A stretch of DNA of 39,006 bases, taken from assembly GCA_029268595.1 (NCBI GenBank), contig JAJUGB010000007.1, forward strand, positions 1 through 39,006, given 5' to 3'. The DNA comes from Alcaligenaceae bacterium. GTDB taxonomy: Bacteria; Pseudomonadota; Gammaproteobacteria; Burkholderiales; Burkholderiaceae_B. The position numbers and the translations under genes were made by a program. Positions 1,394-18,345 of the stretch are shown here, piece by piece; positions within the stretch are counted from its first letter, which is position 1, and each line of letters opens with the position of its first letter. Below the pieces are notes generated by a model, which saw only the letters and a list, made by a program, of their open reading frames with translations, had not been told where the DNA came from and ran no database searches.

Positions 1394-4291
1394 TCAGTGC
1401 TGGGTGGTGTTTCGCAGCTTGCTTACTTTAGCAGGCAGGTCGCTCCATTCAGGTTTGTCGGGCGCGAACCTGGCGCGCATGTATTCCAGCAAACGTACGA
1501 TTTGTTCATCGTTCATGCTGTCTTTGAACCCTGGCATGTATCCTAAACCGCCGTCCGTCGGGTCGGCAATGCCATGCAAGAGCACCTGGATGGCATTGTC
1601 GGGGTGGTCGCTGTGCAGGTTGGTATTCAGGGCCAGGGACGGCCGTGCTCCGAACAGGGGTGGTCCGCCGCGGGCATCGTGACAAACCGCGCAAGCCCCC
1701 TGGAACAGGTCTTCTCCGGCTAGCGCCATCACCGATAGATCGTTCTTGCTGCGGTCTTCCAGTTGCGCCGCCAGCAGTGCAGGGGCGGTTCCCGAAGAAG
1801 GGGGGTTGATGGAGCTCAAGTAATGGGCCATGGCGCGCACGTCCGATTCGGGCAGTTCGGCCAAGCCCTGGATGATGGGCGCCATGGGGCCGGCCGCCAC
1901 TCCGTGCAGAGGTGAATAGCCGGTACGAAGGTATTCGTAAAGGTCGTCTTCCGTCCACGGGATCGGCGACTTTGACAAGCTGTTTAGCGCTGGCGCTTCC
2001 CAACCTTCTGCGAATCCTCCACCGAGATAATTGAGGCCTTCTTTTTTCTCGGCGCCCAGAGCATTGCGCGGCGAGTGACAGGCGGCGCAATGGCCGGCTC
2101 CTTGGACCAAATACGCGCCGCGGTTCCAAAGCTCCGATTGATTAGGGTCGGGTTGAAATGGTTTGGTGTCGAGGTACAGCAGATTCCAACCGGATACCAG
2201 ACTGCGAATGTTCAAAGGGAAAGGCAGTTCAGTCTTGGGGGGTGAGTACTGGACGGCGGGTTGGGTCATCAGGTAGGCGTAGAGCGACTGCATATCGCCT
2301 TCATCGAGCTTCGCAAAAGACGTATAGGGAAAAGCAGGATACAAATGCCGACCATCACGATGGATGCCCTCGCGCATGGCGCGTTCAAAAGCGGCGTACG
2401 ACCAACCTCCGATGCCTGTTTCTTTATCGGGGGTGATATTGGTCGTGTAGATGATGCCAAACGGGGTTTCTAACGGCCGACCTCCCGCGTTGGGCTGTCC
2501 GCCATCTGCGGTATGGCAGACCATGCAATCTCCGGCGGCCGCCACCAGGCGACCACGCTCAATGGCGGCTTCGGAGTACACAGAAGTGTCTACTGCGACC
2601 GGTGCTATTGCGGGCCGCCACGGCATGGCGGTGGCAATCACACCGCCGACCGTCGCCAACAAGCCGCCCAGTGCCGTATGGGCCCATTTGCGGTATTTGC
2701 TTGGCGGCTGCGCTTGGGCAAGTCCTTGCAAATTCAGGCCATCGAAGGGCGCTTGCCGCAGTCTGATTCCTGTCGCGTCGTAAATCGCATTAGCGATGGC
2801 CGCGGCAGCTGGAAGCTCGGCCTGAGGACTCCAGGCAAGGGGCGCGTCGAGGGAGCGTTTGGAACGAACCAGCTCCACCTTGGGGAAACTGAGAGCGCTG
2901 GTGGCAGCGTCGGACACGGAGGGCTCTGAAAAAATGGGAGTTTGCGGGCCCGACCTCGAGGGCAGCCACCGCACGGCCGCGTCCCGAATCGTCTCTTCGA
3001 TCCGCTCACTCTGTGGCGCATTGTCGAGGCTTTGGGAATCGTGGCCTACGGTGAGCCGAGTAATATCGACAGCACCAGTCTGGCGGTTGACTTCCACCTC
3101 GGCTACCCATGCCGACCAAACGTCGCGAGGAGGCTCCTGCGAGTGATCCACAATATGGGCATACGCAAAACCGCGACCCGACCCGTCTTGGCGTTCAGCA
3201 CCGTCTGCGTTCCAGTGTGCTTGTTGCGTTACTGATTCAATAAGGCGGCGGCCGGGGCCTTCCGGCATGTCTTCCAGCCGCCCTCGCACCGGATCCTTAC
3301 CTTGCTGCAGATACCACTCGTCCAGAAAGGACTCTCGAGCAAATACTTGAGCAGCCGGCAAGGCAGAGGAGGCGCCCAGGGAGCCGAGAGGAGCAAAGAC
3401 AGGCTTCACTTCATAGGTGAAGTCCGGGCCATAACCTTTGGTTCCCAAGGTGCAGTCCGCTGCATAGTGATGTTCTACACCACATAACAGCGCTGCCACC
3501 GACGGGCGGCGAAAGGCGTACTGGTTTCCGGTAAACGAACGATAAGATGTCGTAGCGACGCCGGCGCCTGCTTTCGTGGAATCGGCCGACAGTTGAATAT
3601 GCAGGGGCGGAGTATGTGGCGGACCGTCTTCGGCAACTCGCACCGCCCGATTGACTCGCACGGCCAATAGCGCGGCTTCTACTGCCACATCGTAAGCGTC
3701 ATGGCGTTGGCCAGTGGACACAATACGCACACCGTCTGTGGGCAGCGCGCACAGCTGAGCGATCTCGCGCCGTAGTAAGTCCGGTCGATGGCAGGAGGCC
3801 CACACCGTGAGCTGTTTGTCCTGAGGCTGAGCTATGGCCCAGCTGGCATCAGCGTCTTGTTGGTTTTGCGCCTGCCATACATACTCGCGCGAGAACCGGC
3901 CTTGAGTGTTGCCGGAAGCCGGGCTGGCTGACGTAATCTCGGCGGCCTGCGGTGTGGCCTGGGTGGACTCCAACTGCGCCTGGCTCGACAGAGTCGGCTC
4001 CACCCAGCGCGGATGCAGGCGGGCGCGCGCTTGTCGCGCCTGTTGAGCTTGAGAAGCGACGATTCCTACGAAATTGTGCAGGACAAGGACCTGAACTACC
4101 CCTGGGGTGGCCTCGGCCGCCTGCGTATCCAGGGCGGCCAGCGTGGGTCCGCAATACGCCATGCCGTTCCAGCTTAGAATGGGCGGTCGTAAAGTGACGC
4201 CGTGAAGCAAGTTGGACGAGGGCGGGGCAAGATCGGCCGACCCAAGACTCTCCAATCCGGGTTCTGCCTTTTGAGGGGCGGGTAATGTCAT
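1394..4291 (-). CDS. nicB: NicB-like nicotinate dehydrogenase subunit: degenerate molybdopterin-type domain fused to three cytochrome c domains
   Basis: This 965-residue protein would pass electrons from hydroxylation of a pyridine carboxylate to the respiratory chain. Residues 25-95 resemble the a/b-hammerhead and 130-520 the molybdopterin-binding part of xanthine dehydrogenase/IorB-type large subunits. A membrane segment lies near 536-556, followed by three haem sites: CMVCH at 589-593, CAACH at 735-739 and CAVCH at 867-871. The start at 4291 is chosen because it forms an ATGA overlap with the nicA stop; an upstream ATG at 4354 lies inside nicA. Pseudomonas putida NicB is a larger protein (about 1190 residues). 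This one lacks about 220 N-terminal residues and the catalytic Gly-Glu loop (AWSPQAELPAAAAIANAIYD at 486-505). The Mo-type domain may therefore be structural only, with catalysis supplied by the divergent subunit at 6224-8479. Confidence 0.87.
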   Translation of the reverse strand: MTLPAPQKAEPGLESLGSADLAPPSSNLLHGVTLRPPILSWNGMAYCGPTLAALDTQAAEATPGVVQVLVLHNFVGIVASQAQQARQARARLHPRWVEPTLSSQAQLESTQATPQAAEITSASPASGNTQGRFSREYVWQAQNQQDADASWAIAQPQDKQLTVWASCHRPDLLRREIAQLCALPTDGVRIVSTGQRHDAYDVAVEAALLAVRVNRAVRVAEDGPPHTPPLHIQLSADSTKAGAGVATTSYRSFTGNQYAFRRPSVAALLCGVEHHYAADCTLGTKGYGPDFTYEVKPVFAPLGSLGASSALPAAQVFARESFLDEWYLQQGKDPVRGRLEDMPEGPGRRLIESVTQQAHWNADGAERQDGSGRGFAYAHIVDHSQEPPRDVWSAWVAEVEVNRQTGAVDITRLTVGHDSQSLDNAPQSERIEETIRDAAVRWLPSRSGPQTPIFSEPSVSDAATSALSFPKVELVRSKRSLDAPLAWSPQAELPAAAAIANAIYDATGIRLRQAPFDGLNLQGLAQAQPPSKYRKWAHTALGGLLATVGGVIATAMPWRPAIAPVAVDTSVYSEAAIERGRLVAAAGDCMVCHTADGGQPNAGGRPLETPFGIIYTTNITPDKETGIGGWSYAAFERAMREGIHRDGRHLYPAFPYTSFAKLDEGDMQSLYAYLMTQPAVQYSPPKTELPFPLNIRSLVSGWNLLYLDTKPFQPDPNQSELWNRGAYLVQGAGHCAACHSPRNALGAEKKEGLNYLGGGFAEGWEAPALNSLSKSPIPWTEDDLYEYLRTGYSPLHGVAAGPMAPIIQGLAELPESDVRAMAHYLSSINPPSSGTAPALLAAQLEDRSKNDLSVMALAGEDLFQGACAVCHDARGGPPLFGARPSLALNTNLHSDHPDNAIQVLLHGIADPTDGGLGYMPGFKDSMNDEQIVRLLEYMRARFAPDKPEWSDLPAKVSKLRNTTQH

Positions 4292-4764
4292 TGTTGTTTT
4301 GTGGCAGCCTGGACGGCCGCAGCCATGATTTCGACGTGAGTGCCGCAGCGGCACAGGTTGTACTTGAGCTCTTCCCGTATCTGTTGTTCGGTGGGATGAG
4401 GATTGCGATTAAGCAGCGCCTGAACGGTCATGATCATGCCGTTCAAGCAATAACCGCACTGGGCTCCCTGCTGCTCTATAAAGGCCCTTTGAACCGGGTT
4501 GGGTTCTTGAATGGAGCCCAAGCCTTCAAGCGTGGTGACCTCGCGGGCCACCACCGCCTTCACTGGTACAACGCAAGAACGCGCCGCCACACCATCGACC
4601 AGTACCGTACAGGCCCCGCATTCGCCCAAACCGCAGCCAAACTTGGGGCCGTTCAGTTCCAGGTCGTTTCTAAGCACGTACAGCAGCGGTGTATCGGCTT
4701 CCACCGTGACATGGTGGGTTTGCCCGTTAACGTGAAGGGCGAAGACTTGCGCGCGGTTATTCAT
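4288..4764 (-). CDS. nicA: Nicotinate dehydrogenase-type [2Fe-2S] subunit
   Basis: This 158-residue small subunit of a xanthine-dehydrogenase-family hydroxylase carries two [2Fe-2S] clusters. The plant-type cluster ligands lie in FGCGLGECGACTVLVDG and the following SC (about residues 43-64). The second, helical cluster uses CGYC (about 102-105) and CRC (about 138-140). Its length and motifs fit NicA of Pseudomonas putida. It takes electrons from the molybdenum site and passes them on, here presumably to the haem domains encoded by the next gene, which its stop codon overlaps (ATGA). The gene starts 5 nt after the nicC stop with no clear ribosome site of its own, so translation is probably coupled to nicC. 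Confidence 0.92.
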   Translation of the reverse strand: MNNRAQVFALHVNGQTHHVTVEADTPLLYVLRNDLELNGPKFGCGLGECGACTVLVDGVAARSCVVPVKAVVAREVTTLEGLGSIQEPNPVQRAFIEQQGAQCGYCLNGMIMTVQALLNRNPHPTEQQIREELKYNLCRCGTHVEIMAAAVQAATKQQ

Positions 4765-4769
4765 TGGTT

Positions 4770-5915
4770 TTATGCGGCTTCTGCGCTAATCAGCGGTACG
4801 TTGAAGACATCGTAGCCAAAGCACCAGTCGGGGTTTTCGTTGGTGCGCAGCCAAGTATTATTGTGTGAGACCAACTGGACTTTGCTGGCTCGTTCGGCGC
4901 GGTTGGCGCGATACAGCTCAAACACAGCCTCGTGGTCGGCAAAACCGAGCTCCTCAAAGCATCGTACCAGCATCGCCGCATCTTCGATAGCCATTGCCGC
5001 GCCCTGGGCCATATGCGGTTTCATGGGGTGGCACGCATCACCAAGCAGCACCATGCGGCCACGGCTCCAGAGTGGCAGCGGGTCCCGCTCCAGCAGCGGC
5101 CATACGGTGACTTCCTGTGTACCTTCGATAAGAGCCTGGACTGAAGAGTGCCAGCCCGAAAAGGTGGCGCGCATGTCGTCTTTGGTGCAGGGCAGCCAGC
5201 TTTGCTTGAGATCCCAGTCGGCTTGGGGCACGCCAGTGACGTAATAGATTTCATCGCGGCGTTGAGTTACGAAGTACACCATCATATGGCGGTCTCCTGC
5301 CCACCATTTACAACACATGTCGAATGGCAGTGACCCACTATCCACCGGAGTGGGGAAAACGGCCCGGTGAGCCACATACCCCGTGTATTTGGGAGGCTCC
5401 GGTCCCAAAAGCGTATCTCTTACTCGTGAATTGATGCCGTCGGCGCCAATGACGAGGTCGGCCTCTTCGGTGCTGCCATCCTCAAATTGCATCACCACTT
5501 TATCGCCGACGTCATCTATAGTGCGCAGCTTTTTGCCAAACTGCAGCAAGCCCGAAGGCAGGGCGTCGGTCATGAGTTTGTGAAAGTCTCCGCGGTGCAC
5601 GGTGAGGTAGGAGGCGCCGTAGTGGGACTTAGCGTAGTCGCCAAGCGGGATCTGCGCCATTTGCTCACCTGTGATTCCGTCACGGCTATACCAGTAGTCC
5701 GGGTGCGCGCCTGTACGGTTCAGTTCATCTTCAATGCCTATCCGGCGCATCACCTTCATGACATTGGGACCCAGATGGATGCCGGCTCCCAGACGGGAAA
5801 AGGCCGGTGCCTGTTCGTAGAGCACGACATTAAATCCAGCTTTCGCCATTAAGGCAGCTGCGGCAGTGCCGCCCAAGCCTGCGCCAATAATGGCGATTCG
5901 AGGTGATGTACTCAT
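4770..5915 (-). CDS. nicC: 6-hydroxynicotinate 3-monooxygenase (FAD-dependent)
   Basis: This 381-residue flavoprotein hydroxylase is expected to convert 6-hydroxynicotinate, NADH and O2 to 2,5-dihydroxypyridine with loss of CO2. The FAD-binding GAGLGG is at residues 11-16, the DG motif (GADGINSR) at 157-164, and GDACHPMKPHMAQG lies near 290-303. His47, Cys201, His210 and Tyr214 fall where studied NicC proteins have active-site residues (His47, Cys202, His211, Tyr215). The overall sequence resembles P. putida NicC closely from end to end. GGAGG sits 5 nt before the ATG at 5915. It is the first gene of the operon nicC-nicA-nicB. The ring-opening and later genes (nicX, nicD, nicF, nicE) are not in this window. 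Confidence 0.92.
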   Translation of the reverse strand: MSTSPRIAIIGAGLGGTAAAALMAKAGFNVVLYEQAPAFSRLGAGIHLGPNVMKVMRRIGIEDELNRTGAHPDYWYSRDGITGEQMAQIPLGDYAKSHYGASYLTVHRGDFHKLMTDALPSGLLQFGKKLRTIDDVGDKVVMQFEDGSTEEADLVIGADGINSRVRDTLLGPEPPKYTGYVAHRAVFPTPVDSGSLPFDMCCKWWAGDRHMMVYFVTQRRDEIYYVTGVPQADWDLKQSWLPCTKDDMRATFSGWHSSVQALIEGTQEVTVWPLLERDPLPLWSRGRMVLLGDACHPMKPHMAQGAAMAIEDAAMLVRCFEELGFADHEAVFELYRANRAERASKVQLVSHNNTWLRTNENPDWCFGYDVFNVPLISAEAA

Positions 5916-5951
5916 GATGGCCTCCGTCTGAAGCTGGTGGTGATTGGGTAA

Positions 5952-5971
5952 TTAGAGTGTATACGCTTTAA
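5952..5971. promoter_or_regulatory. Candidate operator palindrome upstream of nicC
   Basis: TTAGAGTGTATACGCTTTAA is an almost perfect 20-bp palindrome centred on GTATAC, with half-sites TTAGAGTGTA and TTAAAGCGTA. It lies 37 bp upstream of the nicC start. Related sequences occur at 6142 and 6210 in the same intergenic region. The nic operons of Pseudomonas and Bordetella are controlled by MarR-type repressors (NicR, BpsR), which bind palindromes of this size. No such regulator gene is visible here, so the assignment is inference. Confidence 0.6.
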
Positions 5972-6141
5972 AAACAGCGGTAAAGTTATTGCGGTTCCGT
6001 GCAGGAAGTGCATTTGCCGCCCGCGTTGCCATTGAATGGAAATGGCGGAAATGTATGAATATCAGTAAGGGTTTACACTGAGCAGGCCCTCTATACGGTA
6101 GATCTTGCTTTGCTGCACTGTGGCCATGGGTTAAGGTTAAA

Positions 6142-6161
6142 TTAGAGGGTGTACGTTGCAT
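6142..6161. promoter_or_regulatory. Second candidate operator (degenerate half-palindrome)
   Basis: TTAGAGGGTGTACGTTGCAT shares the TTAGAG..GTGTA left half with the palindrome at 5952 but has a poor right half. It lies 62 bp upstream of the molybdopterin-subunit start. If real, it would let one regulator control both divergent nic units. Confidence 0.4.
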
Positions 6162-6209
6162 ATGGCCCTGGTTTTAAAAGCGTTCGAACACCGCTTCCCC
6201 GCGGCCCTT

Positions 6210-6229
6210 TTAAGGGTGTACACATGTTT
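6210..6229. promoter_or_regulatory. Third related site overlapping the ribosome site and start of the molybdopterin subunit gene
   Basis: TTAAGGGTGTACACATGTTT contains an 8-bp perfect palindrome GTGTACAC with a left flank like the other two sites. It covers the ribosome-binding site (AAGGG at 6212-6216) and the ATG at 6224. A bound repressor would block access here, but the match may partly reflect the Shine-Dalgarno sequence itself. Confidence 0.3.
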
Positions 6230-8479
6230 TCTCAGCCGCAGACTCAGCTTCAGCATTTATTCAACCAATCGGGCGCCTTGCTCGTGGTGCGGCCTCCGGG
6301 CAGCGCGCCTAAACCTCCTCCGCGCCAGCCGGGCATCGCCTCGGACTACCTGCAGCCGTACGACGACGTGTTTGTCGCGGTTTTGGCCAGTAGCGAAGTA
6401 TTGGCCTTCAATGGCCACGTCGATCTCGGGACCGGAGTGCAGACCGCCTTGGCGCAAATCGTCGCCGAGGAGCTGGATGTCTCGCTGAAACAAGTGCGCA
6501 TGGTGCTGGGACACACCTCGGCCACCCCCAATCAGGGCCCCACAATTGCAAGCGCAACAATACAGATCAGTGCAGTCCCGTTGCGCAAGGCGGCTGCCCA
6601 AGCGCGTCAGTTTTTGCTCAGGCGCGCGGCGGAACGTTTCAGTGTGCCGGTCACTGATTTGCGGGTAGAGGCCGGACAAGTATTCGCTTCAACTGGCGAT
6701 GCGGTCATGTATGGGGATTTGCTGGCGGGCGAGCACCACCGGATACAACTGGCTGACGATGTGCCCTTGAAGCCTGCCGATCAATACCGCATCATCGGGC
6801 AATCCACCCCTCGGGTCGATATTCCTGCGAAAGCGACGGGTCAGCCGGTTTTCGTACACGATGTGCGCGTGCCGGGGATGTGGCATGCTCGAGTCATTCG
6901 GCCTCCTTATGTGGGGCGTGACAGTGGCAGCTTTGTAGGCAACTCTCTTATTTCCTTTGATGAGTCGTCAATCAAGCATATCGCGGACGATATTCGCGTG
7001 GTGCGGCTGGGTGACTTCCTTGCGGTGGCTGCCCGCCGCGAAGAACACGCCATCAAGGCGGCCCGGGAATTAAAGGTGCAGTGGCGAACGCCACCCCCCT
7101 TGCCGCCGCTGAACGATCTTGATCAGGCCCTGCGCGCCTGGCCATACACAGAGCGGCTGTTGCTTGAGCAAGACGAGGCCGATCCGCAATCTCAGAGTAG
7201 CGTCACTTTGGAGCGGAGCTACGAGTGGCCGTTTCAAATGCATGCGTCGGTCGGGCCCTCGTGCTCAGTCGCCCACTATGTAGAAGGGCAGATACGCGTC
7301 TGGTCGGGTAGCCAGAACCCGCATATGCTGAGAGTAGAGCTAAGCCGTTTGCTGGAACGCGATGAAGGCCACATCGAAATCATTCGAATGGAGGCTTCGG
7401 GCTGTTATGGGCGCAATTGCGCGGACGATGTATGTGCCGATGCGGTACTCATTAGCCGGGCCATCGGACACCCAGTGCGCGTACAGCTCACTCGAGAGCA
7501 AGAGCATGGCTGGGAACCCAAAGGCGCGGCGCAAGTCATTGATGTAGCTGGGCAGCTGGATCAGGGCCGCCGGTTATTGTCCTACGATTTCATCACCCGA
7601 TACCCGTCCAACGATGCTCCTACCCTTGCGCTAATCCTCACGGGCAAGGTCAGCAACGAGCCGCGGATGCTTGAAATGGGCGATCGCACGAGCGTGCCCC
7701 CTTATCGTTATCCGCGCATGCGCATTGTCTGCCACGATATGGCGGCGATTGTTCGGTCCGCCTGGCTGCGGGGCGTCTCCGCACTGCCCAATTCATTCGC
7801 GCACGACTGCTTTATAGACGAACTTGCCGCTCTCGCTGATGAAGACCCGGTCGCTTTTCGTTTACGTTACTTGAAGGAGGAGCGGGCCCGTGACGTCTTG
7901 CAAGCGACGGCCGAGCGTGCTGAGTGGCGCGAGCGGCAGACCGGTTCCCGGGGCACGGTAGGACCCGATGGTTTGCTTCACGGCCGCGGCGTCGCCTACG
8001 CCCGTTACACCCACAGCCGGTTTCCCGGGTTCGGGGCCGCTTGGAACGCCTGGGTCGTCGACGTCACTGTCGATCCGAATTCAGGCCGCGTTCGCGTTGA
8101 TAAGGTTGTGGTGGGCCAAGACAATGGAATGGTCGTGAACCCCGACGGGGTACGCCATCAAATCCAGGGCAACGTCATACAAATGATAAGCCGTTGTTTG
8201 AAGGAGCAAGTGGCTTTCGATGCGAAGGGCGTGGTGGATTTAGAATGGGGCGCCTACCCCATCATCAACTTCACCGAGATCCCACCCATCGACGTCCTCG
8301 TCATGCACCGTCCCGATGAACCGCCCATGGGCGCTGGTGAGTCCTCTTCCGTTCCAGCGCCCGCGGCAATCTCCAATGCCTTGTTCGACGCCACAGGAGT
8401 GAGATTCCGCTCTGCGCCGTTTACTCCGCAAAAAGTGCTGGCTGCGTTGCAAGGGGCGATCGAAACCTCACCCGCCTAA
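6224..8479 (+). CDS. Molybdopterin-binding large subunit of a nicotinate-type (IorB-like) dehydrogenase
   Basis: This 751-residue catalytic subunit of the xanthine oxidase family would hydroxylate an N-heterocycle (nicotinate to 6-hydroxynicotinate fits the context). The N-terminal domain of about 200 residues carries GHVDLGTGVQTALAQIVAEE from about residue 64. The hammerhead follows near 215-300, then the molybdopterin domains with GCYGRNCADDV, GQDNGMVVNPDGVRHQIQG and MGAGESSSVPAPAAISNA. Glu706 of GAGE matches the catalytic glutamate of the family. It has no haem motifs, unlike P. putida NicB. AAGGG at 6212-6216 is 7 nt before the ATG at 6224, so earlier in-frame starts were rejected. It probably assembles with NicA and the haem-bearing NicB-like protein, comparable to the three-subunit nicotinate dehydrogenase of Comamonas. 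Confidence 0.88.
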   Translation: MFSQPQTQLQHLFNQSGALLVVRPPGSAPKPPPRQPGIASDYLQPYDDVFVAVLASSEVLAFNGHVDLGTGVQTALAQIVAEELDVSLKQVRMVLGHTSATPNQGPTIASATIQISAVPLRKAAAQARQFLLRRAAERFSVPVTDLRVEAGQVFASTGDAVMYGDLLAGEHHRIQLADDVPLKPADQYRIIGQSTPRVDIPAKATGQPVFVHDVRVPGMWHARVIRPPYVGRDSGSFVGNSLISFDESSIKHIADDIRVVRLGDFLAVAARREEHAIKAARELKVQWRTPPPLPPLNDLDQALRAWPYTERLLLEQDEADPQSQSSVTLERSYEWPFQMHASVGPSCSVAHYVEGQIRVWSGSQNPHMLRVELSRLLERDEGHIEIIRMEASGCYGRNCADDVCADAVLISRAIGHPVRVQLTREQEHGWEPKGAAQVIDVAGQLDQGRRLLSYDFITRYPSNDAPTLALILTGKVSNEPRMLEMGDRTSVPPYRYPRMRIVCHDMAAIVRSAWLRGVSALPNSFAHDCFIDELAALADEDPVAFRLRYLKEERARDVLQATAERAEWRERQTGSRGTVGPDGLLHGRGVAYARYTHSRFPGFGAAWNAWVVDVTVDPNSGRVRVDKVVVGQDNGMVVNPDGVRHQIQGNVIQMISRCLKEQVAFDAKGVVDLEWGAYPIINFTEIPPIDVLVMHRPDEPPMGAGESSSVPAPAAISNALFDATGVRFRSAPFTPQKVLAALQGAIETSPA

Positions 8480-8509: not shown

Positions 8510-9805
8510 TCAAGGGACAAGGGCAAGACCAACCCGCACCTGCGGCGAGCTCTTTTGGTTATAGCCGAGAAGGGTCTCGCCGTAGCCGTGGAAGTACTGA
8601 ACGTGCAAATAGCCGTTCATATCGAGGAACGTCCGGCGCAAGGGCCAAGCTGCTTCAAGCTGCACGGTCTTGCGCCCGCTTTTACCTTGGCGGTAGAGAC
8701 CTGTCAGAACCAGGCCATTGTCCTGAGCCCAGCGCGCCTTCCAGTCCACATAGCCGGCATAATCTGCGTAGTCGGGGTTGTCCGGCTTACCGAAGTAGCT
8801 TTTGACCCGTGGCGCGAAGGTGAAGGTACTGCCGCCCGAGAAGCGATAGTTGAGTTGCGGCTCCAGGTAATAGCTGTTGATGGAACGCGAGTCCGCCCCG
8901 CTCTTACCGTTGGAGTTATGCTGCACACCAGCCGCCAAACCGGCAAAGACGCGCCGTTCCGGAGACTGCCAGAGGGCGTCCTGATGCCAGAACAGGCTGG
9001 GATTGTAGGTCGTATCGATGAACGGTTTGGATTCGCCCGCCAGATCCCACAGGGACCGCTGCGTGTAGCCTAAATATAGATGGTTGAAGAAGCCCGGGTT
9101 GGAAGCATCGGCTGGCGTGAACAAGCGATATTTGAAGCTGATCTGGAAACGGGCGTTCGTGCCGTCGCGCTTACCCAAATCGAAATAGATGGGTTCAAAC
9201 GGCGAAATCGCATTGCGAAAGTGCTCGAAGGCAGAGGGTGCTGCGGCCAAGGAGCGCTGGCCTGTTGGGGCGGGGCCTTGATCGATCGATGCCCCCGCGG
9301 CCTGCGCTGCGCCTTCAGGTAGCGCAGGGTCGTAATAGGCCCCGTCACGAGCTGCCCCTGCCTGGACGATGGGAGCCTGTGCCGGCGCTTGCGCGATAAG
9401 GCTCTCGTGGGGCGCGCTTGCATCCAGGGCCAATAGTACGGACTCGCCTTCTATGTTGATGGCCTGCAGGCCTTTAACTGCAGCCGGCACTACGGCCCGC
9501 CACGAAAAAGCGGCGAAGTTATTTACAGGAAGATCAACCTGGTTCGGTGCACTTTCCAGATGGGCCAGCGAGCGCACGACCTTCCCGTTGGGGTCCCGCC
9601 ATTGAAGTACCAGCTCTTTAGGAGGGGTCCAACTTAATGTGTTGGGGGTGTCGTTGAATAACGTGCCTTGGACGCGCACCTCTTCACCTGAAGCAGCGCG
9701 AATGGTATCTAGTTGGTAGCTCATGCCGGCTTGAGCGCTAAAGGCCGTGAGAAGAGCCGAGGCGGCCAGGGCAGCTTGCACGGTAAGCCGAGCACGCAGG
9801 GGCAT
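8510..9805 (-). CDS. pldA: Outer-membrane phospholipase A (PldA family) with N-terminal extension
   Basis: This 431-residue OMPLA-type protein hydrolyses phospholipid acyl esters in the outer membrane. A signal peptide (about 26 residues ending TAFSAQA) leads into a region of about 150 residues, rich in beta strands and then Ala/Pro/Gln, before the 12-strand barrel starts near residue 190 (FEPIYFDLGKRDGTNARFQ). The catalytic motif QHNSNG places His296 and Ser298. The protein ends in a beta strand with a near-C-terminal aromatic/hydrophobic pattern, as expected for an outer-membrane protein. Escherichia coli PldA has about 289 residues, so the N-terminal part is extra. The start at 9805 is chosen because it begins right at the signal peptide. 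An in-frame ATG at 9865 is possible, and neither has a good ribosome site. It converges on the molybdopterin gene. Confidence 0.85.
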   Translation of the reverse strand: MPLRARLTVQAALAASALLTAFSAQAGMSYQLDTIRAASGEEVRVQGTLFNDTPNTLSWTPPKELVLQWRDPNGKVVRSLAHLESAPNQVDLPVNNFAAFSWRAVVPAAVKGLQAINIEGESVLLALDASAPHESLIAQAPAQAPIVQAGAARDGAYYDPALPEGAAQAAGASIDQGPAPTGQRSLAAAPSAFEHFRNAISPFEPIYFDLGKRDGTNARFQISFKYRLFTPADASNPGFFNHLYLGYTQRSLWDLAGESKPFIDTTYNPSLFWHQDALWQSPERRVFAGLAAGVQHNSNGKSGADSRSINSYYLEPQLNYRFSGGSTFTFAPRVKSYFGKPDNPDYADYAGYVDWKARWAQDNGLVLTGLYRQGKSGRKTVQLEAAWPLRRTFLDMNGYLHVQYFHGYGETLLGYNQKSSPQVRVGLALVP

Positions 9806-9865
9806 GCGAACTGCGTCAAGTTGAACTCTAGAGACAGAGCTCAAATCAAAAACCAAGTGGGTCAT

Positions 9866-10730: not shown

Positions 10731-11462
10731 TCACCCCTTGAATAAATCCGGTGGCAGATGCTTGACCGCTTCATAGGTCATGCGTATGTGGTCGGCCAGG
10801 ATCTTGCAGGCCTTTTCGCTGTCGTGCGCCAGGGCGGCGTCCAGTATGGCCTGATGCTCGCTGTGCACATCGCGGGGAATGGGTTGCTGAACGATGACCA
10901 AACGGCGATAGCGTTCGGCCTGCTGGTACAGGATTCCCATGAAATGGCGAACCCAGCTGGATGTACAGGCGCTGATCAGAGCGCGATGGAATTCGCGATT
11001 GCGCTCTTCCCATTCGTTAAAGCCCTCGGCGTCGTTATCAGTCAGGCGCGCCTGGGCCCGATCCAGGCGGTGAAAGGCTGCCACGATCCGGCCCTCCCAG
11101 ACGTCGTCTCCCCGTTCGATGGACTGCTTGAGTGCTTCACACTCGAGAAGGATGCGGGTTTGGGTGATGTCGTGGAAATCTTCGATAGATATGGGTTTGA
11201 CATGAAAGCCGCGTTGACCCTGGGCTACGACCAGTGCGTCCGACACCAGCAGGGCCAACGCTTCGCGCAGCGTACCGGCTCCGACACCGTAGGTGTCTTT
11301 GAGATGCTCGACCCGCAAGCGCGTGCCCGGCGCCAAGCGGCCCTCGATAATATCCCGACGCAGACGGTGATACGCCGCGCCAACAAGCGTTTTGGCGGTG
11401 GGCGGCACAGAGCCGGCCGCTACGGTGGAAGGAGTGGCGCCTTCAGCAGAAATATCCAGCAT
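10731..11462 (-). CDS. GntR-family regulator, FadR (FCD) subfamily
   Basis: This 243-residue regulator has a winged helix at about residues 25-92 (AYHRLRRDIIEGRLAPGTRL, then a recognition helix GAGTLREALALL). An all-helical FCD ligand-binding domain spans about 98-230. Candidate metal-binding residues lie in NREFHRALISAC and in the histidines of EHQAIL and DHIRM. Members of this subfamily usually sense carboxylic acids and act as repressors of adjacent catabolic operons. The gene is divergent from the extradiol dioxygenase operon across 156 bp, so that operon is the likely target and an aromatic acid or ring-cleavage product the likely ligand. Both are inference. No strong ribosome site is seen at the ATG at 11462. 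Confidence 0.88.
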   Translation of the reverse strand: MLDISAEGATPSTVAAGSVPPTAKTLVGAAYHRLRRDIIEGRLAPGTRLRVEHLKDTYGVGAGTLREALALLVSDALVVAQGQRGFHVKPISIEDFHDITQTRILLECEALKQSIERGDDVWEGRIVAAFHRLDRAQARLTDNDAEGFNEWEERNREFHRALISACTSSWVRHFMGILYQQAERYRRLVIVQQPIPRDVHSEHQAILDAALAHDSEKACKILADHIRMTYEAVKHLPPDLFKG

Positions 11463-11556
11463 ATCAAGGCCAAGGGTAAGTATTAGTAGCAGTTTACCGT
11501 AATTGCGGCAAAAATGCGGCTAGAGCGATAGAAATGAAAAATCTCGATAAAATCAC

Positions 11557-11585
11557 TTGACGCCGATATTGCGAGGAATTATTCT
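11557..11585 (+). promoter_or_regulatory. Sigma-70 promoter of the meta-cleavage operon
   Basis: TTGACG at 11557-11562 and TATTCT at 11580-11585 are separated by an ideal 17 bp. The expected transcription start is about 25 bp upstream of the GTG start at 11619. A small palindrome TTGCGGCAA at 11503-11511, upstream of the -35 box, might be part of the GntR site. Confidence 0.7.
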
Positions 11586-11618
11586 TAGTTCTGCGCTTCC
11601 TACGGCTAAGGAGACATT

Positions 11619-12482
11619 GTGATCCACCTGCATGACATTCGCTACGTGCGGCTTGGTACCTCTGATTTAGATGGGGCAGTCAGGTACGCAACCGATTTGC
11701 TGGGTTTACAGGTAGCGCACCGGGATGCCAAGAGCGTGTACTTTAAATCCGACAGTCGCGACCATACGCTTTGCTATTTCGAGGGCGATCCGCGCGACCA
11801 TACGGCTGCTTTCGAGGTCGATACCGCCAAAGAGCTTTCAGATGCCGCCGAGCTGCTGGAAGCAAAGGGATACAAGGTTCACCAGGGCACGGCCACCGAA
11901 GCCGAACAGCGTCATGTGCGCGAATTCATTGCCTTTAACGATCCATCCGGCAATCGAATCGAGCTTGTTTACGAGCCGCATCACAGCGGAGTCCGTTACT
12001 TTGCACCGCGCGACGCAGGTATTACCGGATTCAGTCATATTGGTTTGCGCACTCTTGATGCAAGGCGGGACGAAAAATTCTGGACGGAGTTGCTGGGGGC
12101 CAAGGTCAGTGACCGTATTGGCGATGCTCCCTTGTTGCGCATAGACGAAGTGCACCACAAGATTGCGCTTTTCCCTTCGGCGTACCCAGGCGTGCAGCAT
12201 ATCAATCACCAGGTGGAAAGCATTGACGACGTCATGCGTGCTTACTACATCATGAGAGAGCGCAACATACCCATCCGTTTCGGGCCCGGTCGCCATCCCA
12301 CTTCCGGAGCCATGTTCTTGTACTTCGCGGGCCCGGACGACATGATTTACGAATATTCCACTGGCGTGCGTTTAATCACCGAAGAGGACGAAAGAACATA
12401 CCGCCCGCGCAACTTCCCCATGGATCCCACTTCATTTTGCATGTGGGGGTCACGACCGGATATTCCGGAGTTCAGGAAGTGA
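11619..12482 (+). CDS. Type I extradiol dioxygenase (VOC fold), likely acting on 2,3-dihydroxybenzoate
   Basis: This 287-residue Fe(II) dioxygenase has two vicinal-oxygen-chelate domains. Expected metal ligands are His140 (GFSHIGL), His197 (HINHQVE) and Glu245 (YEYSTG). His180, His226 (GPGRHPTSG) and Tyr235 fit the conserved second-shell residues of BphC-type enzymes. It would cleave a catechol next to its hydroxyls. The next gene is a decarboxylase, and the hydroxymuconic semialdehyde dehydrogenase branch follows. A carboxycatechol such as 2,3-dihydroxybenzoate is therefore the best guess, as for DhbA/CmtC. The start is a GTG with AAGGAG 5 nt upstream. It is the first gene of the operon, and its stop overlaps the next start. 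Confidence 0.85.
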   Translation: MIHLHDIRYVRLGTSDLDGAVRYATDLLGLQVAHRDAKSVYFKSDSRDHTLCYFEGDPRDHTAAFEVDTAKELSDAAELLEAKGYKVHQGTATEAEQRHVREFIAFNDPSGNRIELVYEPHHSGVRYFAPRDAGITGFSHIGLRTLDARRDEKFWTELLGAKVSDRIGDAPLLRIDEVHHKIALFPSAYPGVQHINHQVESIDDVMRAYYIMRERNIPIRFGPGRHPTSGAMFLYFAGPDDMIYEYSTGVRLITEEDERTYRPRNFPMDPTSFCMWGSRPDIPEFRK

Positions 12483-13186
12483 GCCAGGTAGGGGTGGCGG
12501 CGGATTTGGCGGCGCAGCGACGTGTCCGTATAGCAGCTCGCGCCTTGGCCCGACACGGCCTGGTGCACGCCTATGGGCACTGCAGTACGCGGCTAGACGC
12601 CGATCACTTCTTGGTTTGTGCCGCTAAACCCATGGGGCTCATTGGGCCGTCGGAAGATGGCACAGTGGTTCCCGTAGACGGAGATCTGCCCGAAGGCGTA
12701 TTGGGCGAAGTCCGGATTCATCAACACATTTATAAGACCCGCCCAGACATCAAAGGGGTCGTTCGCAGCATGCCTCGCGATGTCATGACCTTGTCCGCGG
12801 CTGGTATAACGCCGGCGCCGCGTCACGGCATGGGTTCTTATTTTTCGCCCGGCGTTCCTTTATGGAACGACGTCCAGTTAGTACGTACCGACGCACAAGC
12901 TCAAGGCGTCGCCAGCCTAATTAGCCAATCTGCAGCAGTAGTCATGCGCGGCAATGGGGCGGTCACAGCTGCCGAATCGCTTGAGGACGCCGTCGTTTTG
13001 ACTTGGTATCTGGAAGACGCTGCCCGCATCGAGCTACAGCTTCGCGCGGCCGGTCTGGCTCAAGACGAGCACATTATTTCGCCTGAGGCCGCAGCCGCTC
13101 GAGCGGTACGGGCCGGACGCATCTTTGAGCGCATGTGGGACTACCTCACAGCTGGCGACCTCGAACTCACTTCAACCATCGTTTAA
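12479..13186 (+). CDS. Class II aldolase/adducin-fold decarboxylase (DhbB/CmtD-like)
   Basis: This 235-residue protein has the class II aldolase fold (HAYGHCSTRL near residue 30, LGEVRIHQHIYKTRPDIKGV near 75-94, MRGNGAV near 156-162). It probably removes the ring carboxyl from the extradiol product, giving 2-hydroxymuconic semialdehyde. The three zinc histidines of canonical aldolases are absent: the usual HxH reads RSM (96-98) and the later His-Gly reads Asn-Gly (159-160). This may be normal for this decarboxylase-type branch. The start is GTG at 12479, with GGAG 8 nt upstream and a GTGA overlap with the dioxygenase stop. An ATG at 12437 inside the upstream gene is less likely. Confidence 0.78.
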   Translation: MSQVGVAADLAAQRRVRIAARALARHGLVHAYGHCSTRLDADHFLVCAAKPMGLIGPSEDGTVVPVDGDLPEGVLGEVRIHQHIYKTRPDIKGVVRSMPRDVMTLSAAGITPAPRHGMGSYFSPGVPLWNDVQLVRTDAQAQGVASLISQSAAVVMRGNGAVTAAESLEDAVVLTWYLEDAARIELQLRAAGLAQDEHIISPEAAAARAVRAGRIFERMWDYLTAGDLELTSTIV

Positions 13187-13199
13187 CCATTTAGCAGCT

Positions 13200-14654
13200 A
13201 TGACTGAATTCAAGAATTTCATTGACGGACAATGGGTTACCTCGGGCAAGACCTTCGAGAACCGTAATCCCATCGACAACAGCCTCATCGGCATGGTGCA
13301 CGAAGCCAATGCCCAGCAGGTTGATCAAGCCGTGCGCGCCGCACGCGCCGCTCTCAGTGGCCCTTGGGCTACCATGAAAACACCAGATCGCGTGGCGCTT
13401 TTGCACGCCGTGGCCGATGGCATCAATAAGCGTTTCGACGACTTCCTTGAAGCCGAAATGATGGATACCGGCAAGCCCTACGGTTTGGCCAGCCATGTCG
13501 ATATTCCTCGCGGAGCGGCCAACTTCAAAGTGTTCGCCGACCTGATTCGCAATATTCCGACCGAAACATTCCCCATGGAAACTCCCGATGGAGGCCATGC
13601 GCTCAACTACGGCATTCGTGTGCCACGGGGCGTCATTGCCGTCGTATGCCCGTGGAACCTGCCGTTGCTGTTGATGACCTGGAAGGTGGGCCCGGCGCTC
13701 GCTTGCGGAAACACCGTTGTGGTCAAACCCTCTGAAGAGACTCCGGCCACAGCAACGCTGTTGGGCGAAGTCATGAACGAAGTGGGCATGCCGGCAGGCG
13801 TCTACAACGTGGTGCACGGGTTTGGTCCCGATTCCGCAGGTCAATTCCTGACAGAGCATCCGGACGTCGATGGCATTACCTTCACGGGCGAAACTCGTAC
13901 AGGGGAAGTGATTATGCGCGCAGCAGCCAAAGGCGTGCGTGCGGTTTCTTTTGAGCTGGGTGGCAAGAACCCCGGCATCGTGTTTGCCGATGCCGATTTC
14001 GACAAGGCGGTCGCCGGTATTACGCGATCGGCCTTCGAAAACTCGGGCCAGGTTTGCCTGGGAACCGAACGCGTCTATGTGCAGCGGCCGATTTTCGAGC
14101 GCTTCGTACAAGCCCTGAAAGAGCGTGCCGAAGGCTTCAAACTGGGTGACAACCGCGACCGTAACACCACTTTCGGCCCCCTGGTCTCTCGTGAACATCA
14201 GCGCAAGGTACTCAGCTATTACGAGAAGGCCGCCGCCGAAGGCGCCACCGTCGTCACTGGTGGTGGCGTGCCGGAGTTACCCGAGGCCCTCAAGGATGGC
14301 GCCTGGGTGCAGCCCACCATCTGGACCGGTCTGCCCGAAACTTCGCCTGTCATCCGCGAAGAAATCTTCGGACCTTGCTGTCACATACAGCCATTTGATA
14401 CCGAAGAAGAGGTCATTGCCATGGCCAACGATACGCCTTACGGTTTGGCCGCTACGGTCTGGACCCAGAATCTCAGCACGGCGCACCGCATGTCGGCCGC
14501 ACTCAATGTGGGCCTATGCTGGGTAAACTCTTGGTTCCTGCGCGACTTGCGCACCTCGTTCGGGGGCGCTAAGCAGTCCGGTCTCGGACGCGAAGGTGGT
14601 GTGCACTCCATGGAGTTCTACACCGAGTTGCGCAACGCGTGCATCAAGCTGTAG
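13200..14654 (+). CDS. dmpC: 2-hydroxymuconic semialdehyde dehydrogenase
   Basis: This 484-residue NAD-dependent aldehyde dehydrogenase has PWN at 151-153, general base Glu252 in FELGGKNPG, and catalytic Cys286 in NSGQVCLGTERVYV. Its length and sequence fit XylG/DmpC, which oxidise 2-hydroxymuconic semialdehyde to 2-hydroxymuconate (4-oxalocrotonate enol form). The start at 13200 lies 13 nt after the previous stop; an in-frame upstream start at 13125 lies inside the decarboxylase gene. This gene selects the oxidative (4-oxalocrotonate) branch; no hydrolase of the XylF type is present. Confidence 0.92.
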   Translation: MTEFKNFIDGQWVTSGKTFENRNPIDNSLIGMVHEANAQQVDQAVRAARAALSGPWATMKTPDRVALLHAVADGINKRFDDFLEAEMMDTGKPYGLASHVDIPRGAANFKVFADLIRNIPTETFPMETPDGGHALNYGIRVPRGVIAVVCPWNLPLLLMTWKVGPALACGNTVVVKPSEETPATATLLGEVMNEVGMPAGVYNVVHGFGPDSAGQFLTEHPDVDGITFTGETRTGEVIMRAAAKGVRAVSFELGGKNPGIVFADADFDKAVAGITRSAFENSGQVCLGTERVYVQRPIFERFVQALKERAEGFKLGDNRDRNTTFGPLVSREHQRKVLSYYEKAAAEGATVVTGGGVPELPEALKDGAWVQPTIWTGLPETSPVIREEIFGPCCHIQPFDTEEEVIAMANDTPYGLAATVWTQNLSTAHRMSAALNVGLCWVNSWFLRDLRTSFGGAKQSGLGREGGVHSMEFYTELRNACIKL

Positions 14655-14661
14655 GAAGGTT

Positions 14662-15447
14662 ATGAACCAAAACAAAATCGAACAATATGGCGACGCTTTG
14701 TACGACGCCCTGATCAACCGTCAAGCTATCGATCCCCTCACTGCCAGTGAGCCGGACATGACCATAGAAGACGCGTATAAAGTGCAGTTGCGCATGATCG
14801 AGCGCCGGTTACAGGCTGGCAACGAGCACATCATCGGCAAGAAGATCGGCGTCACCAGTCAAGTGGTCATGGACATGCTCAAGGTCGACCAGCCCGACTT
14901 TGGTCACCTGACGTCGGCGATGGTCTATGGCGACGGCGACGCCATTCCGACGGACAGCCTGATCTCGCCTCGTGCTGAGGGTGAAATCGCGTTTGTGCTG
15001 AAGCACGATCTGACCGGACCCGGCGTCACCAATGCCGACGTATTGCGGGCCACCGAATACGTCCTGCCGTGCTTCGAGATTGTCGACTCCCGTATCCGCG
15101 ACTGGAAAATCAAAATTCAGGACACTGTGGCCGATAACGCTTCTTCGGGCGTGTTTGTGCTGGGCGATGCCGCTGCAGACCCCCGGAAAATCGATCTCTC
15201 TGTAGTGGGCATGACCCTGGAAAAAGATGGCGAGATCCTGGCAACCGGCGCCGGCGCCGCTGCGCTGGGTCATCCGGTTAACGCCGTCACCTGGCTGGCC
15301 AATACGCTTGGCCGTCTGGGCATCTCCCTGAAGGCTGGCGAAGTGATTTTGTCCGGTTCATTGGCCGCGATGATTCCGGTGCAGGCAAATACCAACCTGC
15401 GCGTGAGTTTGGGCGGCATTGGCTCCGTTGGCGTTCGCTTTGTCTAA
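14662..15447 (+). CDS. dmpE: 2-oxopent-4-enoate (2-hydroxypenta-2,4-dienoate) hydratase
   Basis: This 261-residue member of the fumarylacetoacetase-like hydratase/decarboxylase family carries GKKIGVTSQVVMDMLKVDQP, PRAEGEIAFVLK and FEIVDSRIRDWKIKIQDTVA. These are typical of DmpE/XylJ. It adds water to 2-hydroxypenta-2,4-dienoate to give 4-hydroxy-2-oxovalerate, using a divalent metal held by the Glu residues of the AEGE motif. AGGAAGG precedes the ATG at 14662, 7 nt after the dehydrogenase stop. DmpE and DmpH form a complex in studied systems, and here their genes are adjacent. Confidence 0.92.
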   Translation: MNQNKIEQYGDALYDALINRQAIDPLTASEPDMTIEDAYKVQLRMIERRLQAGNEHIIGKKIGVTSQVVMDMLKVDQPDFGHLTSAMVYGDGDAIPTDSLISPRAEGEIAFVLKHDLTGPGVTNADVLRATEYVLPCFEIVDSRIRDWKIKIQDTVADNASSGVFVLGDAAADPRKIDLSVVGMTLEKDGEILATGAGAAALGHPVNAVTWLANTLGRLGISLKAGEVILSGSLAAMIPVQANTNLRVSLGGIGSVGVRFV

Positions 15448-15456
15448 GGAAGATTC

Positions 15457-16245
15457 ATGGCATTACATACTACAACCATTCAAAAACTGGCCGAACACCT
15501 GGATGCCGCGGAAAACGAGTGCCGCGATGTCGTCAAGATCACGGACGAGCATCCCGATATGGATTGGGATGACGCCTACGCCATCCAAGATGCTCTACGG
15601 GCCATTAAAGAAGGGCGGGGCGTACGCATCACGGGCCTGAAGATGGGCCTGACCTCCCATGCCAAGATGAAGCAGATGGGCGTCAAGGATCCCGTTCGAG
15701 GGTTCATCACGGATTACGGCATGGTCGCCGACGGAGGAGAATGCGACACCAGCACGCTCATCCATCCCAAGGTGGAAGCGGAAATCGCATTTGTCACCAA
15801 GAAGGCTTTGTCGGGTCCCGGCTGCCATATTGGTGACGTGCTGGCGGCTACCGATTTTGTTCTCCCGGCCCTCGAAATCATCGATTCGCGTTATCGCGAT
15901 TTCAAATTCGACCTGAAAAGCGTAATTGCCGATAACACTTCGGCCGCGCGATATGTGCTGGGCGGGCGCTCTTGCAACCCAGTCGGTATCGATTTAAAAA
16001 ACCTGGGTGTGGTCATGGAGAAAAACGGCGTCGTGGTCGCCACCGGCGCCGGCTCGGCTGTACTGGGTCACCCGGCCCAGAGTGTGGCCATGCTGGCCAA
16101 TATGCTGGGCGCACGTGGCGAGGAAATCCCTGCAGGCACGCTCATTCTTACCGGCGGAGTCACCGAGGCAGTGGCGGTCGAAAAGGGCGACAGCATCAAC
16201 GTGCGCTACCAGCACCTGGGCTCGGTATCGCTGCGTTTCGTGTGA
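15457..16245 (+). CDS. dmpH: 4-oxalocrotonate decarboxylase
   Basis: This 262-residue paralogue of the preceding hydratase has GLKMGLTSHAKMKQMGVKDP and the metal-binding EAEIAFVTKK, typical of DmpH/XylI. It decarboxylates 2-oxohex-3-enedioate to 2-hydroxypenta-2,4-dienoate, which is passed to the hydratase. The gene order hydratase-decarboxylase and the motif differences between the two (GKKIGVTS against GLKMGLTS) support the assignment. The tautomerase that usually supplies its substrate (4-OT, about 62 residues) is not encoded in this cluster. Confidence 0.9.
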   Translation: MALHTTTIQKLAEHLDAAENECRDVVKITDEHPDMDWDDAYAIQDALRAIKEGRGVRITGLKMGLTSHAKMKQMGVKDPVRGFITDYGMVADGGECDTSTLIHPKVEAEIAFVTKKALSGPGCHIGDVLAATDFVLPALEIIDSRYRDFKFDLKSVIADNTSAARYVLGGRSCNPVGIDLKNLGVVMEKNGVVVATGAGSAVLGHPAQSVAMLANMLGARGEEIPAGTLILTGGVTEAVAVEKGDSINVRYQHLGSVSLRFV

Positions 16246-16278
16246 TGAGCACGTCGGACTTCAATTTAAGGAACTCAA

Positions 16279-17226
16279 ATGACTCAAGCTCGCAAAGTTA
16301 AGGTCGCCATCATCGGGTCGGGCAATATTGGCACCGATCTCATGATCAAAGTGCTGCGCCAGAGCGAGAACCTCGAAATGGCCGCCATGGTCGGCATCGA
16401 CCCAGCGTCAGATGGCCTGGCTCGTGCACAGCGCATGAATGTGCCCACAACGGCTGAAGGCATCGATGGTCTGGTGGCCATGCCCGGATTTTCCGACATT
16501 CGTATTGTGTTTGATGCCACGTCGGCCGGCGCGCACAAACATCACAATGAAGTCTTGCAAAAGCACGGTGTTCAGGTTATTGACCTGACGCCGGCCGCTA
16601 TTGGGCCCTATGTCATACCGTCCATCAACCTGGACGAGAAACTGGATGCGCCCAACATTAATATGGTCACTTGCGGCGGCCAGGCCACCATTCCCATGGT
16701 CAAGGCGGTGGCCAAGGTAGCCAAAGTGCACTACGCAGAAATTGTGGCGTCCATTTCCAGCCGATCGGCAGGTCCGGGCACTCGTGCCAATATCGACGAG
16801 TTCACCGAGACAACCTCTAAAGCCATCCAGGTGCTAGGCGGCGCCACCAAGGGCAAGGCCATTATCATTCTTAACCCCGCCGAGCCCCCCCTCATCATGC
16901 GGGACACCATCTTCACTTTGTCCGAGCCCGCCGATCAAGACGCGATTCGCCAAAGTGTGCAGGAAATGGTGGCCGATGTGCAGCAGTATGTGCCCGGTTA
17001 CCGCCTCAAGCAAGAAGTGCAGTTCGACCTTTATGACGAAAGCAACCCGCTCAATGTGCCGGGTCTGGGCAAGCTGTCCGGATTGAAGACGTCCATCTTC
17101 CTTGAAGTGGAAGGCGCTGCCCATTACCTGCCCGCCTATGCGGGCAACCTGGACATCATGACTTCCGCTGCCATGGCTTGCGCCGAACGATTAGCCGTGA
17201 CGCGGCTTGCGGACTTGGCCGTTTAA
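16279..17226 (+). CDS. dmpF: Acetaldehyde dehydrogenase (CoA-acylating)
   Basis: This 315-residue NAD+- and CoA-dependent enzyme converts acetaldehyde to acetyl-CoA. It has an N-terminal Rossmann motif ([14 protein letters not shown]) and the catalytic Cys132 in [10 protein letters not shown], the same position as in DmpF. In this family the enzyme forms a channelling complex with the aldolase encoded next, 18 bp downstream. Start and length match the family. Confidence 0.95.
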
Positions 17227-17244
17227 GGCCTACTGGAGCACACA

Positions 17245-18270: not shown

Positions 18271-18278
18271 GCCGACGC

Positions 18279-18300
18279 ACCGGCCCCGTGTGGGGCCGGT
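18279..18300 (+). terminator. Intercistronic hairpin between catabolic and transport genes
   Basis: ACCGGCCCC and GGGGCCGGT form a perfect 9-bp stem with a 4-nt loop. No T run follows, so it may be an inefficient terminator or an mRNA-stabilising hairpin rather than a full stop. Genes on both sides run in the same direction. Confidence 0.55.
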
Positions 18301-18345
18301 AACCCAAACGGTTAATAAAAAACTAAACCGTACGAGGAGACAATC

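Follow-up and report, generated by a model that had tools for sequence, protein, structure and literature searches.

A predicted pseudoenzyme molybdopterin domain in the haem subunit of a putative split nicotinate dehydrogenase

Why does a locus for a putative nicotinate dehydrogenase code for two proteins of the molybdopterin type, only one of which retains the residues expected of a catalytic subunit? The question arises in the genome of an Alcaligenaceae bacterium (GenBank assembly GCA_029268595.1), in which a 39,006-bp stretch (contig JAJUGB010000007.1, positions 1 to 39,006; here, the window) begins with a divergent gene set filling its first 8.5 kb. The two proteins are NicB1 (6224..8479, plus strand, 751 amino acids [aa]), a molybdenum (Mo) subunit without haem, and NicB2 (1394..4291, minus strand, 965 aa), in which a Mo-type domain is followed by a hydrophobic anchor and three CxxCH haem sites; the names follow usage in Delftia, where nicB2 adjoins nicA (as given in the part of PMC4572682 that lists the genes). 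An earlier note on this DNA had described complementary losses, the 6224-8479 protein keeping the full Mo region with the GAGE glutamate but no haems, and the 1394-4291 protein having three CxxCH sites but lacking the first ~220 residues, the loops, and the catalytic glutamate. Both descriptions stand, the first on a motif check and the absence of CxxCH and the second with its coordinates unchanged. We think it fairly probable that the locus encodes a three-part enzyme, in which a conserved pseudoenzyme domain of NicB2, predicted to be cytoplasmic, docks NicA and NicB1 to a membrane-anchored haem arm.

NicB2 contains a Mo-type domain without ligand motifs

NicB2 has three parts, all on the minus strand: a dead (pseudo-) molybdopterin domain at approximately residues 21-527 (2711..4231), recognized by a profile-profile match, motif loss, and a structure model; a predicted hydrophobic anchor helix at residues 532-554 (2630..2698), recognized by hydrophobicity and charge bias at the junction with the haem part; and a haem arm (1412..2575) with CxxCH sites at 2513-2527, 2075-2089, and 1679-1693. 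The haem sites are accompanied by Pfam cytochrome c matches, and the arm matches the cytochrome c subunit of the Gluconobacter oxydans membrane aldehyde dehydrogenase (8gy3_A; E value, 4e-110). The Mo-type part scores 29.1 bits with MoCoBD_1 (curated cutoff, 27) and 18.1 bits with MoCoBD_2 (below 27); the corresponding NicB1 scores are 65.4 and 126 bits. BLASTP aligns NicB2 with NicB1 at 25% identity (E value, 6e-34) from NicB1 residue 244 (776-aa reading), and a profile-profile comparison gives a probability of 100 and an E value of 1.5e-63 over 486 columns, which excludes a chance Mo-like match. The homology extends from that residue to near the NicB1 end, and the NicB2 domain is without the ~220 N-terminal residues of NicB1.

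NicB1, assigned by Pfam, motifs, and model, has no CxxCH and keeps its N-terminal stretch together with the motifs GTGVQTALAQ (6428..6457, plus strand), NQGPTIASAT, GCYGRN, WLRGV, HQIQGN, and MGAGE (8327..8341, plus strand), which in the xanthine oxidase family are the cofactor contacts and the catalytic glutamate. All are missing from NicB2, where LAWSPQAELP is the equivalent of MGAGE. Thus the molybdopterin loops, active-site arginine loop, and GxGE glutamate typical of the xanthine oxidase family are present in NicB1 and absent from NicB2, which by sequence and predicted fold is a homologue of the family and, judged by its motifs, a non-catalytic member. A role for NicB2 as a second active Mo subunit was rejected because of the motif loss.

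Single chains were modelled with AlphaFold2, NicB2 on 26 sequences. In the dead domain model, 28 of 40 ten-residue blocks across residues 21-420 have a mean predicted local distance difference test (pLDDT) score of at least 80; the haem arm of NicB2 is modelled poorly, and the anchor appears as a helix at low pLDDT. The dead domain model aligns with residues 225-771 of 8gy3 chain C (Z, 24.0; 437 residues; root mean square deviation, 5.2), and the NicB1 model, as a control, aligns with residues 51-771 of the same chain (Z, 33.7; 662 residues). The dead domain is therefore predicted to keep the Mo-subunit fold.

Split, fused, and bare-cytochrome forms among relatives

Relatives were drawn from named genomes, further genomes, and plasmid records, and are of three kinds: a split form with NicB1 and NicB2, a fused NicB, and NdhSLM-like sets, in which the cytochrome is bare. 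The split form is not special to the window genome and occurs in several families, with examples in Alcaligenaceae, Burkholderiaceae, Oxalobacteraceae, Halomonas, and Endozoicomonas. Sequences were classed as NicB2 rows if similar to the window NicB2, with haem and Mo matches but none to residues 1-245 of NicB1. Exact duplicates, a near copy of locus L012 (L029), and two fused-gene pieces (L066 and L097, kept for the hydropathy scan) were dropped before counting; the partial NicB2 rows of L023 and L024 were left out of the motif counts, as were the partial NicB1 rows of L028 and L030 from the counts, and L108 was grouped with the NdhL-like rows with its cytochrome gene unchecked. One of the fused-gene pieces, on a Pseudomonas plasmid (L066:7827-10172), is a nicB that lacks its 5' part and lies close to a gene for an IS6100 transposase.

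Motif loss is general in the NicB2 rows. The GCYGRN, NQGxT, and HQxxGN patterns are present in 0/35, as is GxGE at the aligned place (0/35), and all 15 checked Mo positions are kept in 36/36 NicB1 sequences (32 clusters at 95% identity) and in 14/14 fused NicB rows. Single columns do retain the residue in a few dead domains, with a glutamate in 3/35 (L012, L059, and L060), none in a GxGE setting, and an arginine in 1/35 (L096), not in a WLRG setting. Looser patterns recur more often (GTG-like in 3/35 and Arg-loop-like in 11/35), and stray GAGE and GAAE matches in L060 (residue 265 of 429) and L032 (residue 240 of 566) both lie far before the domain end; conversely, the loose HQxxGN pattern is missed by 1/36 NicB1 and 1/14 fused rows, though both checked columns hold. 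The earlier note had set two outcomes against its proposal, and neither occurred: the haem-bearing protein is without molybdopterin ligands rather than keeping them all, and the pseudo-domain is not in every known NicB, since the 14 fused rows keep the ligand positions and so have no dead domain.

NicB2 and a separate NicB1 travel together. Among 61 related genomes, NicB2 (E value limit, 1e-120) and a NicB1-type gene (1e-140) are found in the same 10. An order-wide sample yields 12/399 genomes passing 1e-150, seven of them split (the window genome included) and five fused, and each of the five new split genomes has a separate NicB1; a class-wide sample yields 3/369 passing 1e-120, namely the window genome, G365 (split, with a separate NicB1), and one that has just an NdhM-like cytochrome. 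A separate NicB1 is also present in 10/10 genomes of named split loci, and the fused gene is the only one seen in all seven fused genomes tested (G393, G431, and the five from the order-wide sample); these tallies use E value limits of 1e-100 to 1e-150, with weaker relatives falling below detection. The nicB1 and nicB2 genes are divergent in 36/36 loci in which both are visible (counted by eye), which are not 36 independent events, as sources may overlap in species and identity is 95% or more in four NicB1 pairs.

Selection on the dead domain

Ratios of nonsynonymous to synonymous substitution rates (dN/dS) were obtained with a Nei-Gojobori script and are crude, because several of the dS values approach saturation and some rows enter more than one pair. 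The dead domain has ratios of 0.062-0.334 (11 measurable of 12 pairs), the haem part has 0.009-0.237 (12 pairs), and NicB1 has 0.035-0.100 (six pairs). The dead-domain ratio exceeds that of the haem part in 10/11 pairs. The window and L005 proteins share 42% identity in the dead domain and 74% in the haem part, and 29 of ~540 dead-domain positions are invariant in 26 rows. On these estimates the dead domain is under purifying selection, relaxed but not neutral. A pseudogene peculiar to the window genome was rejected, as 35/35 relatives share the dead state and dN/dS is <1.

Membrane sidedness and electron path

The best 19-residue window was sought in the 110 residues ahead of the first CxxCH, and its mean hydropathy reaches 1.2 in 35/37 NicB2 sequences (partial L023 and L024 included), 15/15 fused, and 4/4 NdhM-like sequences. 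Net positive charge is greater before than after this hydrophobic segment in 33 NicB2, 15 fused, and 4 NdhM-like sequences, the segment starts 50-53 residues before CxxCH in the 16 rows printed, and the hydrophobic stretch at the N terminus of 8gy3_A lines up with this segment. Sequence inspection reveals no N-terminal signal in NicB2 and no export signal in NicB1 or NicA. Because c-type haem is attached in the periplasm and the anchor separates the two parts of a protein without a visible N-terminal signal, the dead domain should be cytoplasmic and the haems periplasmic; NicB1 and NicA, neither of which shows an export signal, should then meet the dead domain at the inner membrane face.

Twin-arginine translocation (Tat) motifs are present in 4/4 NdhL-like and 5/7 IorB-like Mo subunits, as well as in 8gy3_C, but in 1/36 NicB1 and 0/14 fused NicB proteins, which suggests a shift of the Mo part into the cytoplasm in the NicB lineage. 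One tentative extension, which we would hold somewhat below an even chance, is that the NicB lineage is an exported and entirely periplasmic Mo-Fe/S-haem enzyme turned inside out, with Tat lost, the Mo part placed ahead of the cytochrome anchor, the dead catalytic copy of the split form serving as an inner-face dock, and electrons crossing the membrane. If true, this would be a trans-membrane dehydrogenase with cytoplasmic catalysis and periplasmic haems.

Origin of the split form

In two reduced Mo trees, each with five dead-domain rows (L024 in both), the dead domain, NicB1, and fused NicB cluster to the exclusion of NdhL-like and IorB-like subunits, with support of 88/85 (tree 1) and 97/94 (tree 2). 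By their haem arms, too, NicB2 and fused NicB group apart from NdhM-like cytochromes in two trees (74/94 and 90/94), and within the cytochrome trees neither the split haem arms as one clade nor the fused arms as one clade is rejected. Because both kinds of tree place the parts of NicB2 with the NicB lineage, they support descent of the dead domain from a NicB Mo domain and a duplication with complementary loss. The earlier note had suggested that an ancestral NicB-like gene was duplicated and that the copies split the work; the reduced trees support the complementary loss and fit an ancestor that was already fused as well as one that was not. The nicB2 gene lies directly behind nicA, in the place held by fused nicB, so it may have been the copy at the original site that lost catalysis.

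A different order of events has perhaps one chance in three, namely that duplication of the Mo subunit preceded fusion, one copy joined an NdhM-like cytochrome, and the spare was lost where fused NicB arose, such that NicB2 is the orthologue of fused NicB. The shared position straight behind nicA agrees with this, and a clade of dead domain plus fused NicB is present in reduced tree 1 itself (67/0) and unrejected in the approximately unbiased (AU) test on tree 2 (P = 0.343); however, dead domain plus NicB1 as one clade is likewise unrejected (P = 0.49 in tree 1 and 0.298 in tree 2). For a dead domain grouped with NdhL, the P values are 0.039 (tree 1) and 0.069 (tree 2).

A docking role and its rivals

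In the three-part enzyme that we favor, NicB1 would bind the Mo cofactor and hydroxylate nicotinate, NicA would carry the [2Fe-2S] clusters, and NicB2 would carry the haems; the N-terminal domain of NicB2 would be a dead relic of the NicB Mo domain that selection maintains as a docking module, where NicA and NicB1 meet on the inner membrane face, and electrons would pass from Mo to FeS to haem. Docking by the dead domain is a plausible role for it, and the sidedness, electron flow, and substrate are predictions from sequence, with nicotinate indicated by the adjoining nicC-type gene and by homologous genes in annotated nic-like clusters.

The Mo-like part of NicB2 could instead be a remnant of fusion that does nothing specific beyond providing a cytoplasmic N terminus, with only the anchor and haem arm of consequence. 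Its fast evolution (42% identity against 74% in the haem part for the window and L005), its few invariant positions (29 of ~540), and a length range of 429 to 785 aa all fit this. We nonetheless consider it unlikely, since the domain is retained in 35/35 NicB2 rows from several families, dN/dS is <0.34 in all 11 measurable pairs, and the model is confident across most of residues 21-420. Longer Mo-like parts, 643-785 aa as cut, are those of the NicB2 proteins of L018, L021, L035, L036, and L088-L091 (Achromobacter and others). A role in assembly or regulation, in which the dead domain holds, for example, apo-NicB1 or NicA during cofactor insertion and is no permanent structural dock, would account for a fold kept while the cofactor motifs are gone and for the pairing with NicB1 in the sampled genomes; the fact that all 35 rows carry the domain and the haem arm on one chain favors a place in the finished enzyme, and we give this role only a small chance.

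Several observations weigh against a dedicated dock under selection and against its proposed origin and location. The dead-domain length varies more than a tight interface should, and in the L025/L061 pair the dead domain evolves no faster than the haem part. The missing N-terminal match of the NicB2 rows follows from how they were defined and is not evidence, although motif loss and NicB1 pairing are independent of that definition. In the all-rows Mo tree the dead domains form one side of a branch (97/97); when IorB-type rows serve as the outgroup, they fall next to a cluster of NdhL, fused NicB, and NicB1 but outside it, and the support of that cluster is only 42/46. This we read as probable long-branch pull, because both five-row trees put the dead domain with NicB1 and fused NicB; those rows were chosen by the author, however, long branches weaken the reduced trees too, and AU tests leave a dead domain outside NicB1, fused NicB, and NdhL unrejected (P = 0.244 in tree 1 and 0.059 in tree 2). 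The NicB1 of L024 has a Tat-like SRRTLL motif. Finally, no identified cofactor bridges the membrane between cytoplasmic Fe-S and periplasmic haems, so there may be an error either in the sidedness or in the simple electron path.

Gene organization and neighboring genes

The nicA and nicC genes lie between nicB2 and nicB1. NicA is a [2Fe-2S] subunit (4288..4764, minus strand) with Pfam Fer2 and Fer2_2 matches, and its stop codon overlaps the ATG at 4291 (ATGA, minus strand); for this reason, that ATG is the most likely nicB2 start, giving 1394-4291 and 965 aa, in preference to a longer open reading frame with a GTG start (986 aa). For nicB1, candidate starts are ATG 6224 and an upstream GTG at 6149, which gives the 776-aa reading. 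The FAD monooxygenase at 4770..5915 (minus strand; FAD_binding_3) is, by context, probably a 6-hydroxynicotinate 3-monooxygenase, from which the name NicC is inferred; in named clusters with fused NicB, an FAD-dependent monooxygenase adjoins 2,5-dihydroxypyridine dioxygenase. The intergenic region between nicC-nicA-nicB2 and the divergent nicB1 (5916..6223, no strand) has no match in a sigma-70-like promoter scan, and scans of it for promoters and inverted repeats reveal nothing convincing. With this divergent gene order, the subunits may be made from two transcripts, as the earlier note proposed.

Next to nicB1 is a gene for a phospholipase A1 family protein (8510-9865, minus strand). The window region 10731-19509 codes for a GntR regulator, a glyoxalase/dioxygenase-family protein, an aldolase, an aldehyde dehydrogenase, two FAA-hydrolase-family proteins, an acetaldehyde dehydrogenase, an HMGL-like aldolase, and a periplasmic binding protein; this gene content resembles a meta-cleavage pathway for aromatic compounds and not a nic set. 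Outside the window, the same genome has four matches to 2,5-dihydroxypyridine dioxygenase (best, 54%), on contigs C237, C3, C86, and C115.

Comparison with known systems

A tripartite NicA-NicB1-NicB2 composition is already in print. Nicotinic acid hydroxylases of this type are described for Burkholderia gladioli and Bordetella in excerpts of a 2023 paper (PMC10269826), and Delftia acidovorans has nicA, nicB1, and nicB2, with nicB2 beside nicA and nicB1 at the opposite end of the gene list (excerpts of PMC4572682). The window agrees, with separate [2Fe-2S], Mo, and haem subunits encoded together with a nicC-type gene, and it shares with Delftia three such genes in much the same arrangement. 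The same split is seen in loci of Achromobacter. That genus is close kin of Bordetella. A dead Mo domain goes unmentioned in those excerpts of PMC10269826 and PMC4572682, systems here compared by description, and among the open-licence papers searched we found no account of a NicB whose Mo domain is dead or inactive.

The NdhSLM type also has three subunits. The nicotinate enzyme cloned by Yang et al., which is taken to be the Comamonas testosteroni NdhSLM type, has subunits of 21, 82, and 46 kDa, the last called a flavoprotein (in the part of a review, PMC10331938, that covers it). In NdhSLM-like sets (JA1 sequences not among them), the third subunit is a bare three-CxxCH cytochrome of 437-445 aa, and a Tat motif is present in the Mo subunit; NicB2 differs from a ~46-kDa subunit without a Mo-like domain in being 965 aa long and having one. 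The window genome itself has a second, NdhSLM-like set on contig C91 (L068:2243-6353), with an Fe-S protein of 168 aa, a Tat-type Mo subunit of 765 aa that is 55% identical to NicB1, and a three-CxxCH cytochrome of 437 aa.

The nearest solved relative by sequence is the Gluconobacter oxydans aldehyde dehydrogenase 8gy3, through chain C for NicB1 and chain A for the haem arm, and it is also the best structural match for the Mo parts of both the NicB1 and NicB2 models. Its Mo chain has a Tat-type SRRNFL near the start, and its cytochrome chain (444 aa), unlike NicB2, has no Mo-like domain.

The fused NicB of the Pseudomonas putida type adjoins NicA and unites a Mo part, a hydrophobic segment, and three CxxCH sites in one protein, with intact ligand positions in the 14 rows compared (KT2440 NicB not among them); that of Pseudomonas sp. 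BYT-5 adjoins nic pathway genes. The window departs from a single chain with intact Mo part and three haems in having two chains, of which the haem chain is without ligand motifs. These results indicate what makes up the haem subunit of split nicotinate hydroxylases and offer a conserved pseudoenzyme domain inside a Mo hydroxylase, which can be compared with the intact fused type that related bacteria still have.

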